Below, in pieces: positions 35,041 through 39,721 of a stretch of 64,000 nt of DNA. The DNA lies in IMG/VR virus record IMGVR_UViG_3300044949_001773, positions 1-64,000 of that record. One strand, written 5' to 3'. The position numbers and the translations under genes were made by a program. Each line of letters starts with the position of its first letter. Position 1 is the first letter of the stretch. Origin of the DNA: a virus. The notes beneath the pieces are model-generated. The model searched no databases, was not told where the DNA came from, and saw nothing but the letters and a program-made list of their open reading frames with translations.

Positions 35041-35856
35041 ATGATAGATTTAACTAATTCCACTTTTATAATCCCTATAAGAATAGAAAGTGACGATAGG
35101 CTAAGAAATGTAATAACTACTTTATGCTATTTGCTATCAAATTTTAATACAAATATTATTATTAAAGAGGTTGATAGTAAATCTATATTTTTAGATTCTG
35201 CTCTCCCTCAGATAGAAGAATTTTGTGAAAGGAAAATTGATATTAATCATATTTTTGAAAAATCTGATGATCCTTCATTTCATAGACAAAGGGTCTTAAA
35301 TGATATGCTTATGGAAGTTGAAACTGATATTGTGATCAATTATGATTGTGATATATTACTTCCTAAAAAATCGTACATAGACGCTTACGATATGATTTCA
35401 TCTGGTAATTTTGATTTAGTGTATCCTTATGGAGATGGGATTTATCAAAAACAAATTTTTGCTACCGATGAATTGGTATCTGACTTTTTAAATAACGATT
35501 TTGATTTTAATATTCTGGAAAAAAGATCAAAGGATTATGATGCCAAATATGGATTCTGTCAGTTCTTTAATAAACGGGTTTACATTGATGGCGGCATGGA
35601 GAATGAAAATTTTGTAGCATACGCTCCAGAAGACGTTGAAAGATACTATAGATTTGATAAGTTGGGATATTCTATAGGTAGAATTGACTCAACAGTTTAT
35701 CATTTAGAGCATGTAAGAACTCATAATTCTTGGTTTAATAATCCATTTATGCAATCTAATAATGAAGAATGGGATATAATTCAAAAGATGGATTCTGATA
35801 CTTTAAGAAATTATATTTTAAACCTACCATATTATAGGAGAAGAATATATGGATAA
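35041..35856 (+). CDS. GT-A family glycosyltransferase
   Basis: 271 residues from ATG 35041 (a longer frame begins inside the previous gene). STFIIPIRIESDDRLRNVIT opens the fold; NYDCDILLPKKSYIDA carries the D-x-D metal site, and FVAYAPEDVERYYRFDKLGY resembles the C-terminal galactosyltransferase region. Eight-base overlap with the next gene. Confidence 0.8.
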   Translation: MIDLTNSTFIIPIRIESDDRLRNVITTLCYLLSNFNTNIIIKEVDSKSIFLDSALPQIEEFCERKIDINHIFEKSDDPSFHRQRVLNDMLMEVETDIVINYDCDILLPKKSYIDAYDMISSGNFDLVYPYGDGIYQKQIFATDELVSDFLNNDFDFNILEKRSKDYDAKYGFCQFFNKRVYIDGGMENENFVAYAPEDVERYYRFDKLGYSIGRIDSTVYHLEHVRTHNSWFNNPFMQSNNEEWDIIQKMDSDTLRNYILNLPYYRRRIYG

Positions 35857-36646
35857 AAACAAATCAACTTATAAATTAAAAAATTTTGGCCCAGTTTATT
35901 GTTTGAATCTTGATGATCAACCTGAAAGATGGGAGTATATGGAAAATCAATTTAAATATTGGGAAATAGAAAACTATACTCGCATTTCTGGTTATGATGG
36001 TAGAAATGATGATCTGAGTGATATTATTAAAGGAAGGTATCCTGAAATGATGTCATCTGGAGAAATTGGATGTACTACATCTCATCTAAAAGCAATCAAA
36101 TACTGGTATGAAACTAGTGATTCTCCGTATGCTATAATTATGGAGGATGATTGTAATTTGGATATTGTAAAATACTGGAATTTTACTTGGTCAGATTTTA
36201 TATCAAGAGCGCCTTATGCTTGGGATGTAATCCAGTTGGCAATTATTTGCACTGGTAATATTATTGTCCCAATTCATACTAGATTTGTAAATGATTTTTC
36301 TACGGCATGTTATGTAATAACAAGGCATCATGCTGAGAAATTATTAAAATATCATATTCGTGGTGACAAATATAAACTTGATAATGGAGTTAAACCTCGT
36401 CCAGTTGCTGATGATTTGATTTATAATTCGGGAATGACTTATGCTGTCCCACTATTATTATATAAAATTGAATTGGGGTCTTCAATACATCCTGATCATA
36501 TTGATACATTTCACAGAAGTAGTCATGATGGAATACTTAATTTTTGGAAACAAAATGGCCCTGATTTGACTATAGAACAAATAACAAATTTTGATCCTTA
36601 TCTTGGTCGGGTTTCCGATCCTTCTCCCTTAGTAGAGAGTACTTGA
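35849..36646 (+). CDS. GT25-type glycosyltransferase (LPS family)
   Basis: 265 residues. VYCLNLDDQPERWEYMENQF, GEIGCTTSHLKAIKYW and YAIIMEDDCNLD (D-x-D-like) are the GT25 pattern. Last gene of the cassette. Such enzymes build LPS or protein-linked glycans. Confidence 0.85.
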   Translation: MDKNKSTYKLKNFGPVYCLNLDDQPERWEYMENQFKYWEIENYTRISGYDGRNDDLSDIIKGRYPEMMSSGEIGCTTSHLKAIKYWYETSDSPYAIIMEDDCNLDIVKYWNFTWSDFISRAPYAWDVIQLAIICTGNIIVPIHTRFVNDFSTACYVITRHHAEKLLKYHIRGDKYKLDNGVKPRPVADDLIYNSGMTYAVPLLLYKIELGSSIHPDHIDTFHRSSHDGILNFWKQNGPDLTIEQITNFDPYLGRVSDPSPLVEST

Positions 36647-36671
36647 CAATTCTTAAAGTCTCTACTACACT
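36643..36671 (+). promoter_or_regulatory. Sigma-70-like promoter before the porin
   Basis: TTGACA (36643-36648), 17 bp, TACACT (36666-36671), overlapping the GT25 stop. A second -10-like TATAGT is at 36718-36723, closer to the porin start. Confidence 0.65.
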
Positions 36672-36681
36672 AAATAAGTAC

Positions 36682-36713
36682 TTAAGAATTCTGTTGTAAT
36701 TCTTAATCTTTTT
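36682..36713 (+). terminator. AT-rich hairpin, possible terminator or attenuator
   Basis: TTAAGAATT (36682-36690) pairs with AATTCTTAA (36698-36706), then TCTTTTT. An identical AATTCTTAA also lies at 36649-36657, so the 5' arm has two possible partners. Confidence 0.45.
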
Positions 36714-36738
36714 GTCCTATAGTACAAACAAAGAATTT

Positions 36739-38211
36739 ATGAAATTTTTTCAACAACTGATGCTTGCACCTGTTGCTCTCGGAATGGTTGCTCCTGTTGC
36801 TGCGAATGCCGCAGACCTTAATATGGCAGCAGTCAATCAGTACTCTTCAGAACAGGTTACAAGCGTCGCACAATTTTCTGATGTCCAACCTACAGACTGG
36901 GCATATCAGGCACTCAGCAACCTCGTAGAGCGTTATGGTTGCGTTGCTGGTTATCCTAACGGCACATTTGGTGGTGGTAAAGCGATGACTCGTTATGAGG
37001 CAGCAGCACTTCTGAATGCTTGCCTTGATCGTGTGACTGAAGTTACTGATGAACTGAAGCGTCTTCAGGCAGAATTTGCACAAGAACTTGCTGTTCTTCG
37101 TGGTCGTGTAGAAAAACTAGAAGCACAAGTCACTACACTTGAGGCACAACAGTTCTCCACGACTACTAAACTTCGTGGTGAAGCAAACTTCGTAATCGGT
37201 GGTGTTGATAACTACCAGACCAAAGATGGTGATATCACTCACACCGCATTCAACTATGATCTGCGTCTGAACCTGGATACTTCGTTTACTGGTAAGGATC
37301 TTCTTCGTACTCGTCTGCGTTCATCTAACTTCAGCAGCAATCCTTTTGGTTCTAGTTCTTCAATTTTCAAACTGGACAAAGCAGACAACACTGTAAGTGA
37401 AGTTGGTAATAACGTAGTTATCGACCGTCTGTACTACTCATTCCCTGTGTTCAATAACACTACCACTCTTACTGCTGGTGCTCTGGTTCGTAATACTGAA
37501 ATCGCTTGGATTCCTTCGGCATATGAATCCAAGATTCTTGATTTCTTCCAAGTAGCAGGTGCTCCTGGGGTTTATAACAAGGCAGTTGGTTCTGGTTTCG
37601 GTATCCAATACGGTAAGAAGACAGGTCTTGTTGCTGGTTTAAACTACGTTGCTCAAAACGGTAGCGATAGTGCAACTGGTGAATTTGACCGTTCTGGCGC
37701 TCTCAATACCCTGGCACAAATCGGTTATCGTGGTACTAACTGGGGTGCTGCATTTGGTTACCGTTATGGTACTGAAGGCACCCGTGTCCGTACCTATAAC
37801 GGTCTGAACGGTGCTTCTGGTACTCTGGTTCCTGGTCAAACCTCTAACGGTTATGCTATCAACGCATACTGGCAACCCACTCAATCTGGTTGGGTTCCCT
37901 CCATCTCTGGTGGTTACGGTTGGAACACTGTAAGTGGCGCCCAAAGTGATGCTACTAACAGTCAGTCCTGGTTTGCTGGTCTAACTTGGGATGATGTATT
38001 TGTTGATGGCAACTCTGCTGGTGTTGCTATCGGTCAGGCACCTACTGGAGAAAATCTTGAGAAGTCCACTCTTCTTGAAATCTTCTACAAGTATCAAGTG
38101 TCTGATAACATCAGCATCACTCCTGCTATCATCTATGGTAGCGACAACCAACGTCTTGCTGGTAACTCCTCTAATTGGGGAGGAGTGGTGCAAACCACCT
38201 TCAAGTTCTGA
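36739..38211 (+). CDS. Cyanobacterial-type outer membrane porin (SLH plus OprB barrel)
   Basis: 490 residues. Signal peptide MKFFQQLMLAPVALGMVAPV with ANA-A cleavage; SLH domain SDVQPTDWAYQALSNLVERY...GYPNGTFGGGKAMTRYEAAA (about 50-105); coiled coil (about 110-150); then a beta-barrel with alternating strands ending in TTFKF (C-terminal Phe of outer membrane proteins). It resembles the major Synechococcus porins. Codon choice is richer in C/G third positions than the neighbouring glycan genes, pointing to recent host origin. It would change permeability of the infected cell. Confidence 0.9.
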   Translation: MKFFQQLMLAPVALGMVAPVAANAADLNMAAVNQYSSEQVTSVAQFSDVQPTDWAYQALSNLVERYGCVAGYPNGTFGGGKAMTRYEAAALLNACLDRVTEVTDELKRLQAEFAQELAVLRGRVEKLEAQVTTLEAQQFSTTTKLRGEANFVIGGVDNYQTKDGDITHTAFNYDLRLNLDTSFTGKDLLRTRLRSSNFSSNPFGSSSSIFKLDKADNTVSEVGNNVVIDRLYYSFPVFNNTTTLTAGALVRNTEIAWIPSAYESKILDFFQVAGAPGVYNKAVGSGFGIQYGKKTGLVAGLNYVAQNGSDSATGEFDRSGALNTLAQIGYRGTNWGAAFGYRYGTEGTRVRTYNGLNGASGTLVPGQTSNGYAINAYWQPTQSGWVPSISGGYGWNTVSGAQSDATNSQSWFAGLTWDDVFVDGNSAGVAIGQAPTGENLEKSTLLEIFYKYQVSDNISITPAIIYGSDNQRLAGNSSNWGGVVQTTFKF

Positions 38212-38235
38212 TAAACTACTCATAACTTGAGTGAA

Positions 38236-38260
38236 GGCACCCCTTTTTGGGGTGTTTTTT
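38236..38260 (+). terminator. Terminator after the porin
   Basis: CACCCC-TTTTT-GGGGTG with T6. Confidence 0.92.
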
Positions 38261-38276
38261 ATTAGGCAATCAAAAC

Positions 38277-38321
38277 CTTAACCAAATCTTAGTGGACTTT
38301 AAGATGGTCTTCTGATATTAT
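38277..38321 (+). promoter_or_regulatory. Pho-box-like repeats and -10 before pstS
   Basis: CTTAACC (38277-38283) and CTTAGTG (38288-38294) are 11 bp apart; a third, weaker copy CTTTAAG follows (38297-38303). TATTAT (38316-38321) sits where a -10 is expected. Tandem CTTAACC-type repeats at 11-bp steps are the host PhoB site of cyanobacteria, so this gene is probably induced by phosphate stress through the host regulator. Confidence 0.65.
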
Positions 38322-38357
38322 TGATCATGAAGTCAATTCACTTCCAAAAAACTTTTT

Positions 38358-39320
38358 ATGAAACTTAAACAAATTTTTGCTGTTGGTCTAGTTGCTGCTC
38401 CTACTGCTGCTCTTTCTGGGCCTACTATTAATGGTGCAGGTGCTACTTTCCCTGCTCCAATTTATCAACGATGGTTCCAAGATTATGCACGAACTACTGG
38501 GAATAGGGTTAATTATCAGTCCGTTGGTTCTGGTGCTGGTGTTCGTCAATTCATTGCGGGCACAGTTAACTTCGGGGCAAGCGACGAATCAATCTCAGAA
38601 TCAGACGCTGCCAAAGTAAAGCGTGGTGTCGTTCAAATTCCTATGGTGGGTGGAACGATTGCTGTCGCTTATAACAAACCTGGATGCTCTCTGAAACTGA
38701 CTCAGAAGCAAACTGTAGATATTTTTTCTGGTCGCATTAAGGATTGGAAAGCACTTGGATGTGCTGCTGGTCCTATTCGTACCGTATATCGTGCAGATGG
38801 TTCTGGAACCACTTATGCATTTACTAATTCCCTAGATGCTTTTGGTGGATGGAAAGCAGGTGTAGGTAAGTCTGTAAAGTGGTCTACTGGTATTGGTGCT
38901 AAAGGTAATGAAGGTGTTTCTGGTAGTATTCGCCAAACGCCAGGTTCCATCGGTTATGTGAACACTGGATTTGTAAAGGCAAACAAACTCCAAGCAGCAG
39001 CGATCCAAAATAAGGCAGGTAAGTTCGTTCTTCCTACTGCTGCTTCTGGTTCTGCCGCACTGAATGGCATTAAACTGGATGCAAATCTTGCGGGAGAAAA
39101 TCCAAATCCTGCTGGAGCAACTGCATATCCAATTTCAACTCTGACTTGGGTTCTTGCGTATAAGACTGGTAATGGTGCTAATGCCGATGCCATTCGTAAA
39201 GCACTCAACTATGCTTTAAGCACTAAGGCACAATCACTTGCCGATGATCTTGGATATGTGCCTTTGAGTGGGTCTATTCTTAACCGAGCACGAATCGCCG
39301 TAAACCGAATCGGTCAGTAA
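38358..39320 (+). CDS. pstS: Phosphate-binding protein PstS
   Basis: Periplasmic phosphate receptor for the host Pst ABC transporter, 320 residues. Signal peptide MKLKQIFAVGLVAAPTAALS; phosphate-site motifs INGAGATFPAPIYQRWF, SVGSGAGVRQFIAG, FGASDE and ADGSGTTYAFTN. A known cyanophage auxiliary gene. No pstCAB follows, so it relies on the host transporter. Confidence 0.96.
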   Translation: MKLKQIFAVGLVAAPTAALSGPTINGAGATFPAPIYQRWFQDYARTTGNRVNYQSVGSGAGVRQFIAGTVNFGASDESISESDAAKVKRGVVQIPMVGGTIAVAYNKPGCSLKLTQKQTVDIFSGRIKDWKALGCAAGPIRTVYRADGSGTTYAFTNSLDAFGGWKAGVGKSVKWSTGIGAKGNEGVSGSIRQTPGSIGYVNTGFVKANKLQAAAIQNKAGKFVLPTAASGSAALNGIKLDANLAGENPNPAGATAYPISTLTWVLAYKTGNGANADAIRKALNYALSTKAQSLADDLGYVPLSGSILNRARIAVNRIGQ

Positions 39321-39351
39321 ATCCTAACAAAATTAAGTATAAATTACTACT

Positions 39352-39377
39352 AGGGGTGCTTGACACCCCTTTCTTTT
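39352..39377 (+). terminator. Terminator of pstS, sharing bases with the next promoter
   Basis: AGGGGTG-CTTGA-CACCCCT then TTCTTTTT. The loop and 3' arm contain the TTGACA of the following promoter. Confidence 0.85.
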
Positions 39378-39388
39378 TGCTATATAAT
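39360..39388 (+). promoter_or_regulatory. Perfect sigma-70 promoter of the hli unit
   Basis: TTGACA (39360-39365), 17 bp, TATAAT (39383-39388), 28 bp before the hli start. Confidence 0.92.
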
Positions 39389-39415
39389 TGTGTAACAATT
39401 CGTAATAAAACGAAA

Positions 39416-39625
39416 ATGACTGTAACAACTAATGATCGTGGACAACAAAATATGTGGGCAATTGAACCGCCTGTTTACATTTCTGATGAAGACGCAAAAA
39501 AGTACGGGATGAAGAGTTATGCTGAACGAGCCGAATCTGCTAATGGTCGCTGGGCTATGCTTGGGATCGTGGCTGGTTTTATCTCTTACGCATTGACTGG
39601 CCATCTGTTTTTTGGTGTAATCTGA
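39416..39625 (+). CDS. hli: High-light-inducible protein 1
   Basis: 69 residues from ATG 39416; the longer frame from 39356 would begin upstream of the promoter's start site. Carries the chlorophyll-binding helix AESANGRWAMLGIVAGFISY (E-x-x-N-G-R-x-A-M-x-G). Protects the photosystems from excess light during infection. Single membrane span. Confidence 0.95.
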   Translation: MTVTTNDRGQQNMWAIEPPVYISDEDAKKYGMKSYAERAESANGRWAMLGIVAGFISYALTGHLFFGVI

Positions 39626-39628
39626 GAC

Positions 39629-39657
39629 TTGACAATGACTTCACTTTTCCTTACAAT
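39629..39657 (+). promoter_or_regulatory. Sigma-70 promoter before petF
   Basis: TTGACA (39629-39634), 17 bp, TACAAT (39652-39657). It overlaps the mini-ORF at 39635, so that ORF would need a transcript from the upstream promoter. Confidence 0.75.
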
Positions 39658-39721
39658 AACATCTGTTGCCTTTTTTATTTTACTGGCAGCATCTGTAGAA
39701 AAACTTTGTGAGACTTACTAA
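39635..39721 (+). CDS. 28-residue membrane peptide
   Basis: [20 protein letters not shown]...; TAATG overlap with petF. No clear ribosome site. Confidence 0.4.

Follow-up and report, generated by a model that had tools for sequence, protein, structure and literature searches.

Discussion of cyanophage phosphate genes, such as pstS and phoA, usually starts at the periplasm and moves inward. In phage P-SSM2 pstS is reported to be controlled by the host PhoB (PMC10976474), and porins have been described as limiting for the entry of phosphate into Synechococcus (PMC7250820). Many cyanophages also encode the small outer-membrane barrel Phage_OMP/DUF680 (PF24653). Its loss through mutation is reported for phage adapting, in nutrient-replete conditions, to a single Synechococcus host (PMC6224464), and in samples from the Sargasso Sea (BATS) it is reported to be over-represented along with PstS (PMC3686209). 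Among larger barrels, a viral OmpL porin is thought to have been captured as a set with glnK-amtB from a bacterium (PMC8115048), and OmpM1 of Veillonella is described as both a tether and a channel (PMC10628300).

The window analysed here is a stretch of 64,000 nucleotides from an IMG/VR virus contig of 131,809 bases, which carries tRNAs and psbA and whose T4-like gp43 is closest to that of S-SRM01 (76%); the record is that of a T4-like cyanophage. An open frame of 5354 codons with repeated TSITATSIAT-type motifs (G000:C1:106246-122310) probably encodes a giant tail-fibre-like protein. The gene under study encodes a porin that is ordinary by family, yet old and phage-owned, and that lies in a replaceable outer-membrane slot; the locus suggests that the phage supplies the outer-membrane step of phosphate acquisition too.

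The porin, its gene and the flanking control elements

The porin gene runs on the plus strand from an ATG at 36739 to a TGA at 38211 and encodes a complete protein of 490 residues with a C-terminal phenylalanine; an in-frame TTG lies upstream at 36712, and the aligned relatives begin at the same MKFF/MKLK. The frame is not a chance one, since relatives are encoded in 293 of 295 pattern-matched IMG/VR stretches, the best 80 being 85–95% identical over their best segment. The product is a SomB-type porin, as indicated by a full-length match to the NCBIfam profile por_somb (NF033921; profile positions 1–485 of 485, 299.2 bits, cut-off 100) and by Pfam matches above the cut-off to SLH (PF00395; residues 46–89, E = 1.9e-9, 37.8 bits) and OprB (PF04966; residues 105–467, E = 2.3e-14, 54 bits). 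A putative signal peptide (MKFFQQLMLAPVALGMVAPVAANAA, residues 1–25), read by eye, is followed by the SLH domain (approximately residues 46–89), a coiled coil (85–137) and a 16-strand barrel (142–489). In the AlphaFold2 model (mean pLDDT 70.9) the coiled coil is a helix, and the strands of the barrel are joined by short turns at one end and by long loops at the other; the SLH part is poorly modelled, as residues 1–81 mostly have a pLDDT below 50. The best structural match of the model is OprB (4gey; Z = 26.1, r.m.s.d. 3.3 over 314 residues), and OmpM1 (8bym; Z = 21.5) has the same SLH–stalk–barrel plan, its SLH and stalk also being matched by the corresponding profile of the porin (E = 6.5e-21). 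A fold search of BFVD returned only distant viral barrels and an SLH protein of S-PM2, no PHROGs family matched the porin, and PF24653 was absent both from the porin and from the whole 131,809-base record. The original prediction of a phage-encoded SLH/OprB-type porin, with complete signal peptide, SLH domain, coiled coil, β-barrel and terminal phenylalanine, is in agreement with these results, as is its placement next to pstS.

Upstream lies a gene for a family 25 glycosyltransferase (GT25; 35849–36646, plus strand) and downstream, on the same strand, are pstS, encoding the periplasmic phosphate-binding protein (38358–39320), and the high-light-inducible gene hli (39416–39625); pstS starts 146 nt 3' of the porin. 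A motif scan placed a candidate sigma70-like promoter (TTGACA, 17 nt, TACACT; 10/12) before the porin at 36643–36671 on the plus strand; such a site is weak alone, the scan having found ten where 6.5 were expected, and TTGAC occurs between −125 and −60 in 43 of 59 phage porin leaders. TAAATA-like motifs, which we take to be late-promoter-like, are found in 51 of the 59. The leader also contains a hairpin-forming stretch (TTAAGAATT...AATTCTTAA; 36682–36707, plus strand), and other phages have hairpins of different sequence at the same place; a strong leader RNA structure was nevertheless discarded, given the modest folding z-scores (median −1.4, and −0.5 in the window). Across the 59 leaders (36672–36738 in the window) the hairpin is followed by a recurring TGTC(C/G)TxTAG(T/A)AC element.

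In the gap between the two genes, a terminator-like hairpin with a T run (38238–38260, plus strand) was read from the sequence, having been missed by the scan, and is followed by Pho-box-like repeats 5' of pstS (CTTAACCA-AAT-CTTAGTGG..., 38277–38304, plus strand), a motif that recurs in relatives. Control of pstS by the Pho system, as originally proposed, is plausible in view of the CTTAACCA-AAT-CTTAGTGG motif at 38277–38295, but the triple-repeat score of the window is not significant; triple repeats at p <= 0.02 were found in 12 of 70 pstS leaders and in one of 59 porin leaders. Since the porin has its own sigma70-like promoter, no significant Pho box and a terminator-like hairpin separating it from pstS, co-regulation of the two genes is not evident, and they look like separate transcription units, a layout that a constitutive porin and a phosphate-tuned pstS would fit. 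Two sub-gathering Rfam matches on 36400–39700 (SraG and a CRISPR repeat model), the only ones obtained, were taken as chance. Between pstS and hli, at 39352–39388, a terminator-like hairpin and a perfect TTGACA-17-TATAAT promoter occupy overlapping sequence.

Ancestry and selection

Recent capture from a Synechococcus host, part of the original prediction, was rejected. The phylogeny with host porins, suggested in that prediction as a check, places the porin deep within phage genes, the placement it had named as contrary to its view. One clade of the first tree takes in 33 phage representatives; when more divergent phages were included, 20 of 23 representatives fell in the main clade, which has a long stem and a support of 100/100, obtained again with wider host sampling. 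The phage porins have a mean pairwise identity of 89%. The best host matches, from 79 host genome loci, are about 57–58% identical, the best host barrel is about 59–60% identical to that of the window, and the host barrels sampled reach at most about 60–65%. The porin is also syntenic in dozens of phage contigs. It has been long domesticated by these viruses, in which it forms one old clade. Among isolates, S-SRM01 provides the sole full-length match, S-CREM1 and S-PM2 having only short SLH relatives. In the tree with wider host sampling, the phage clade was not placed nearer to pstS-linked or to futA-linked host porins. Codon use is indeed unlike that of the adjacent glycan genes, as had been noted (GC3 0.347, against 0.185 in the preceding GT25 gene), but it resembles that of the phage's own psbA (0.410), these two being the second and first of 99 ORFs of at least 100 residues; the high GC3 is therefore no argument for recent transfer.

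The porin is under strong purifying selection, extracellular loops included: dN/dS, calculated for 1200 random pairs from 80 phage sequences, is 0.14 overall, about 0.10 in the strands and SLH domain (SLH 0.103) and 0.165 in the outer loops. Barrels have also been exchanged, to judge from four loci (L199, L224, L318 and L205) with SLH/coil regions 78–88% identical to that of the window and barrels only 47–48% identical; the barrels of the three that were compared with hosts are 60–64% identical to other host paralogues. The phage SLH module thus appears to be paired also with other host-type barrels, of at least two further types. The SLH/coil region is equally close to hosts and to other phages and so does not reveal where that part came from. 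Barrel-only trees reject a common origin for all phage barrels (p-AU 4.7e-42, for minor barrel types singled out after the tree had been seen and with a test that shares the model's long-branch risk). L191, L192, L221, S-CREM1 (L002) and S-PM2 (L003) encode proteins of about 280–293 residues in which the SLH domain is accompanied by a small, barrel-like C-terminal part without a match to any Pfam barrel family. In eight loci (L031, L032, L035, L037, L041, L042, L043 and L055) the porin leader lies directly 3' of an apparent tRNA 3' end, as if the gene had moved there.

A replaceable slot and its pairing with pstS

The order of genes in the slot is glycosyltransferase, porin, optionally pstS, and hli; in other cyanophages the position is held by the unrelated small barrel DUF680. 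Of 80 GT25 loci, 69 are followed by hli, and the 11 without it were set aside from the slot count. A porin-family gene occupies 48 of the 69 slots (21 with and 27 without pstS), and 21 slots, three of them with pstS, have no porin. Included in the 48 are three 293-residue forms that combine SLH with a small barrel (L191, L192 and L221), three other barrel types (L199, L205 and L224) and a gene split into two frames (L164); the short SLH protein can be regarded as a third type of occupant. The gaps of eight of the 21 porin-less slots were read (L204, L217, L222, L225, L229, L238, L241 and L242), and six hold a DUF680-type ORF, L229 another gene and L204 almost nothing; L223, a locus without hli, has two DUF680 ORFs 5' of pstS. 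These assignments are confirmed by the PF24653 profile in L222, L238, L223 and L311, the other DUF680 slot calls being by eye. In L182 and L200 the slot is empty, and the same-named contigs (L042 and L033, respectively) hold a porin elsewhere. Most of the porin-carrying phage contigs are, we assume, of freshwater or estuarine origin; S-SRM01 comes from a reservoir.

DUF680 was matched in 450 phage records, for which 461 Synechococcus-, Cyanophage- or Prochlorococcus-named records with gp43, a list that differs from the DUF680 list, offer a rough comparison. In a sample of 32 hand-chosen records, many of which may be fragments, PF24653 was above the cut-off in none of the 29 with a por_somb match (porin or SLH-barrel), while the remaining three, picked for porin absence, had two matches each. 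The lone sub-threshold match (G009) overlaps the leader of the G009 porin itself. Of 191 full-length phage porins, 13 begin with a DUF680 leader fused to them in frame: their leaders align with those of DUF680 at scores of 84–95, whereas no other phage porin scores above 41 and no host porin above 45. The alignment takes in the DUF680 mature start GPYVES, directly followed by the porin sequence QVTSI, and the profile support is by itself weak (E = 0.0005 to 0.036). The simplest reading of these fusions would be recombination inside the slot. The porin of the window has no DUF680-type leader.

Among close relatives, a porin lies upstream in 71 of 72 scorable pstS loci, 65 of them within 700 nt (80 loci, less six cut too close upstream and two without an intact pstS ORF; near-identical contigs are counted separately). 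In the sole exception, L311, DUF680 is upstream. DUF680 is annotated directly 5' of pstS in the isolates S-SM1, S-SSM7 and Syn19, and in P-SSM2 this position holds a 357-nt ORF called DUF680 in a second P-SSM2 record; it is not directly 5' of pstS in P-SSM4. This pairing is seen in marine cyanophages, with DUF680 and pstS in one place in 65 records, to be set against 100 records in which pstS was matched, 79 of them named as cyanophages. In hosts, four of 79 porin loci hold pstS, and in all four it directly follows a sister-group porin (L087, L088, L089 and L097; gaps of 87–212 nt); the iron gene futA lies directly downstream of the sister porins of L085, L086 and L090, and a family-wide search of 300 genomes returned further porin–pstS/futA pairs. 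Freshwater Cyanobium/Synechococcus porins of one group are thus found directly 5' of pstS or futA, an adjacency from which the substrate of a picocyanobacterial porin might be predicted by simple genomic means. Cyanophage pstS genes form three separate groups in the pstS tree, and in every group some members adjoin a gene for an outer-membrane barrel. Capture of porin and pstS as a block from a host pair found no support, as the host sister clade of phage pstS mixes porin-linked and unlinked genes; unlinked host pstS genes reach a slightly higher identity to phage pstS than linked ones. Phage, pstS-linked and futA-linked porins are not told apart by the net charge of the barrel, of the strands or of loop 3, so the substrate is unreadable from charge.

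Possible roles of the porin and comparison with known systems

The reading that we favour, with a little more confidence than doubt, is that the gene provides a virus-encoded porin and outer-membrane tether that maintains or raises the entry of small nutrients, chiefly phosphate, and that it has taken over the slot of DUF680. The infected cell would export the SomB-type porin to its outer membrane, where it would link the membrane to the cell wall by means of its SLH domain and coiled-coil stalk, and form a diffusion pore with its 16-strand barrel; phosphate entering the periplasm through this pore could then be bound by the phage PstS encoded by the next gene. In freshwater and estuarine cyanomyophages of this group, the porin would have replaced DUF680 in a fixed slot. 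Expression during infection, insertion, tethering, pore activity and the phosphate substrate are steps that we infer. A long-domesticated pore protein at the place where marine relatives encode a smaller, different barrel suggests that the virus remodels the outer membrane of its host, probably to ease the entry of phosphate. Main support for a nutrient role comes from the repeated pairing of barrel and binding protein, taken with the published porin-limited entry of phosphate into Synechococcus; the original suggestion of raised nutrient entry is strengthened by the host porin–pstS/futA pairs and the near-constant pairing in phages. Against phosphate entry, 27 of the 48 slot porins are without pstS and the S-SRM01 porin is not adjacent to it, which means that the porin can occur independently of PstS; DUF680, a family of 122 positions, is too small for an obvious pore; and the NCBI family is named 'iron uptake porin'. 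A broader proposal, put forward tentatively and with doubt prevailing, is that a cyanomyophage barrel slot with interchangeable unrelated barrels, together with repeatedly acquired pstS, constitutes a viral route by which phosphate crosses the outer membrane into the periplasm, the first step of uptake thereby passing to the virus.

The persistence of the porin where pstS is absent would also be expected if the surface, rather than the pore, mattered, with barrel and LPS-type glycosyltransferases altering the cell surface and blocking superinfection by competitors, so that any barrel would fit. The slot borders a glycan gene cluster, it accepts unrelated barrels (DUF680 and the 293-residue SLH protein with its small barrel), and at least two further host barrel types lie behind the phage-type SLH module; we nevertheless consider such remodelling unlikely, since the extracellular loops are conserved among phages rather than diversifying (dN/dS 0.165) and the tie to pstS in both phages and hosts is left unexplained. 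For the replacement of a host receptor porin, with a block of superinfection, as originally suggested, these results weigh neither way: the loops are under purifying selection, though barrels have been exchanged. A contribution to envelope integrity, in which SLH tether and barrel keep the outer membrane attached to the wall for as long as a protracted infection lasts, or adjust when lysis occurs, the pore being incidental, would agree with the SLH domain being among the most conserved parts and with its retention in short relatives with a small barrel; SLH/OprB proteins of Synechocystis are reported to affect vesicle release, one being essential (PMC8707739), and OmpM1 acts as tether as well as channel (PMC10628300). 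Yet the usual occupant of the slot, DUF680, has no SLH domain and tethering predicts no link to pstS or futA, which makes this role improbable. That the porin admits the iron needed by photosynthetic proteins synthesized at a late stage of infection seems very improbable, the constant phage partner being pstS (of the two partner genes, the phage survey covered pstS), despite the name of NF033921, the sister host porins directly 5' of futA in L085, L086, L090 and other genomes, a phage clade not separated in the tree from the futA-linked group, and the petF and hli genes that follow in the phage. With this locus, the widespread and unexplained DUF680/PhCOG173 gains a functional partner, being replaceable by a full porin, and this replacement offers a direct way into asking what DUF680 does.

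The window porin resembles the cyanobacterial SomB porins (NF033921; Slr1841/Slr1908 type) over its full length, with SLH domain, coiled coil, OprB-type barrel and terminal phenylalanine, but is phage-encoded and belongs to its own clade. The 'porin' of the freshwater isolate S-SRM01 (QPX48248.1) is an orthologue from the same phage clade, 72% identical, but lies outside this slot and has no adjacent pstS; a term search of the main text of PMC8557907 found no mention of porin or outer membrane, and the phrase 'phage-encoded porin' was not met in our literature search, to which this statement is confined. OmpM1 (8bym) shares the SLH domain, stalk and 16-strand porin, but is bacterial and only about 15–17% identical in structural alignment. 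The viral OmpL of marine viral contigs is likewise virus-encoded beside a nutrient-transport gene, whereas its locus is described as concerning ammonium, a presumed Bacteroidetes host and a different porin family (PMC8115048). Phage_OMP/DUF680 (PF24653, PHROG 417, PhCOG173) has in common with the window porin a signal peptide, an outer-membrane barrel, the slot and the pairing with pstS; it is, however, a small single barrel with no SLH domain, not homologous over its length, and its common ground in sequence with the phage porins is the leader found in 13 of 191 of them.
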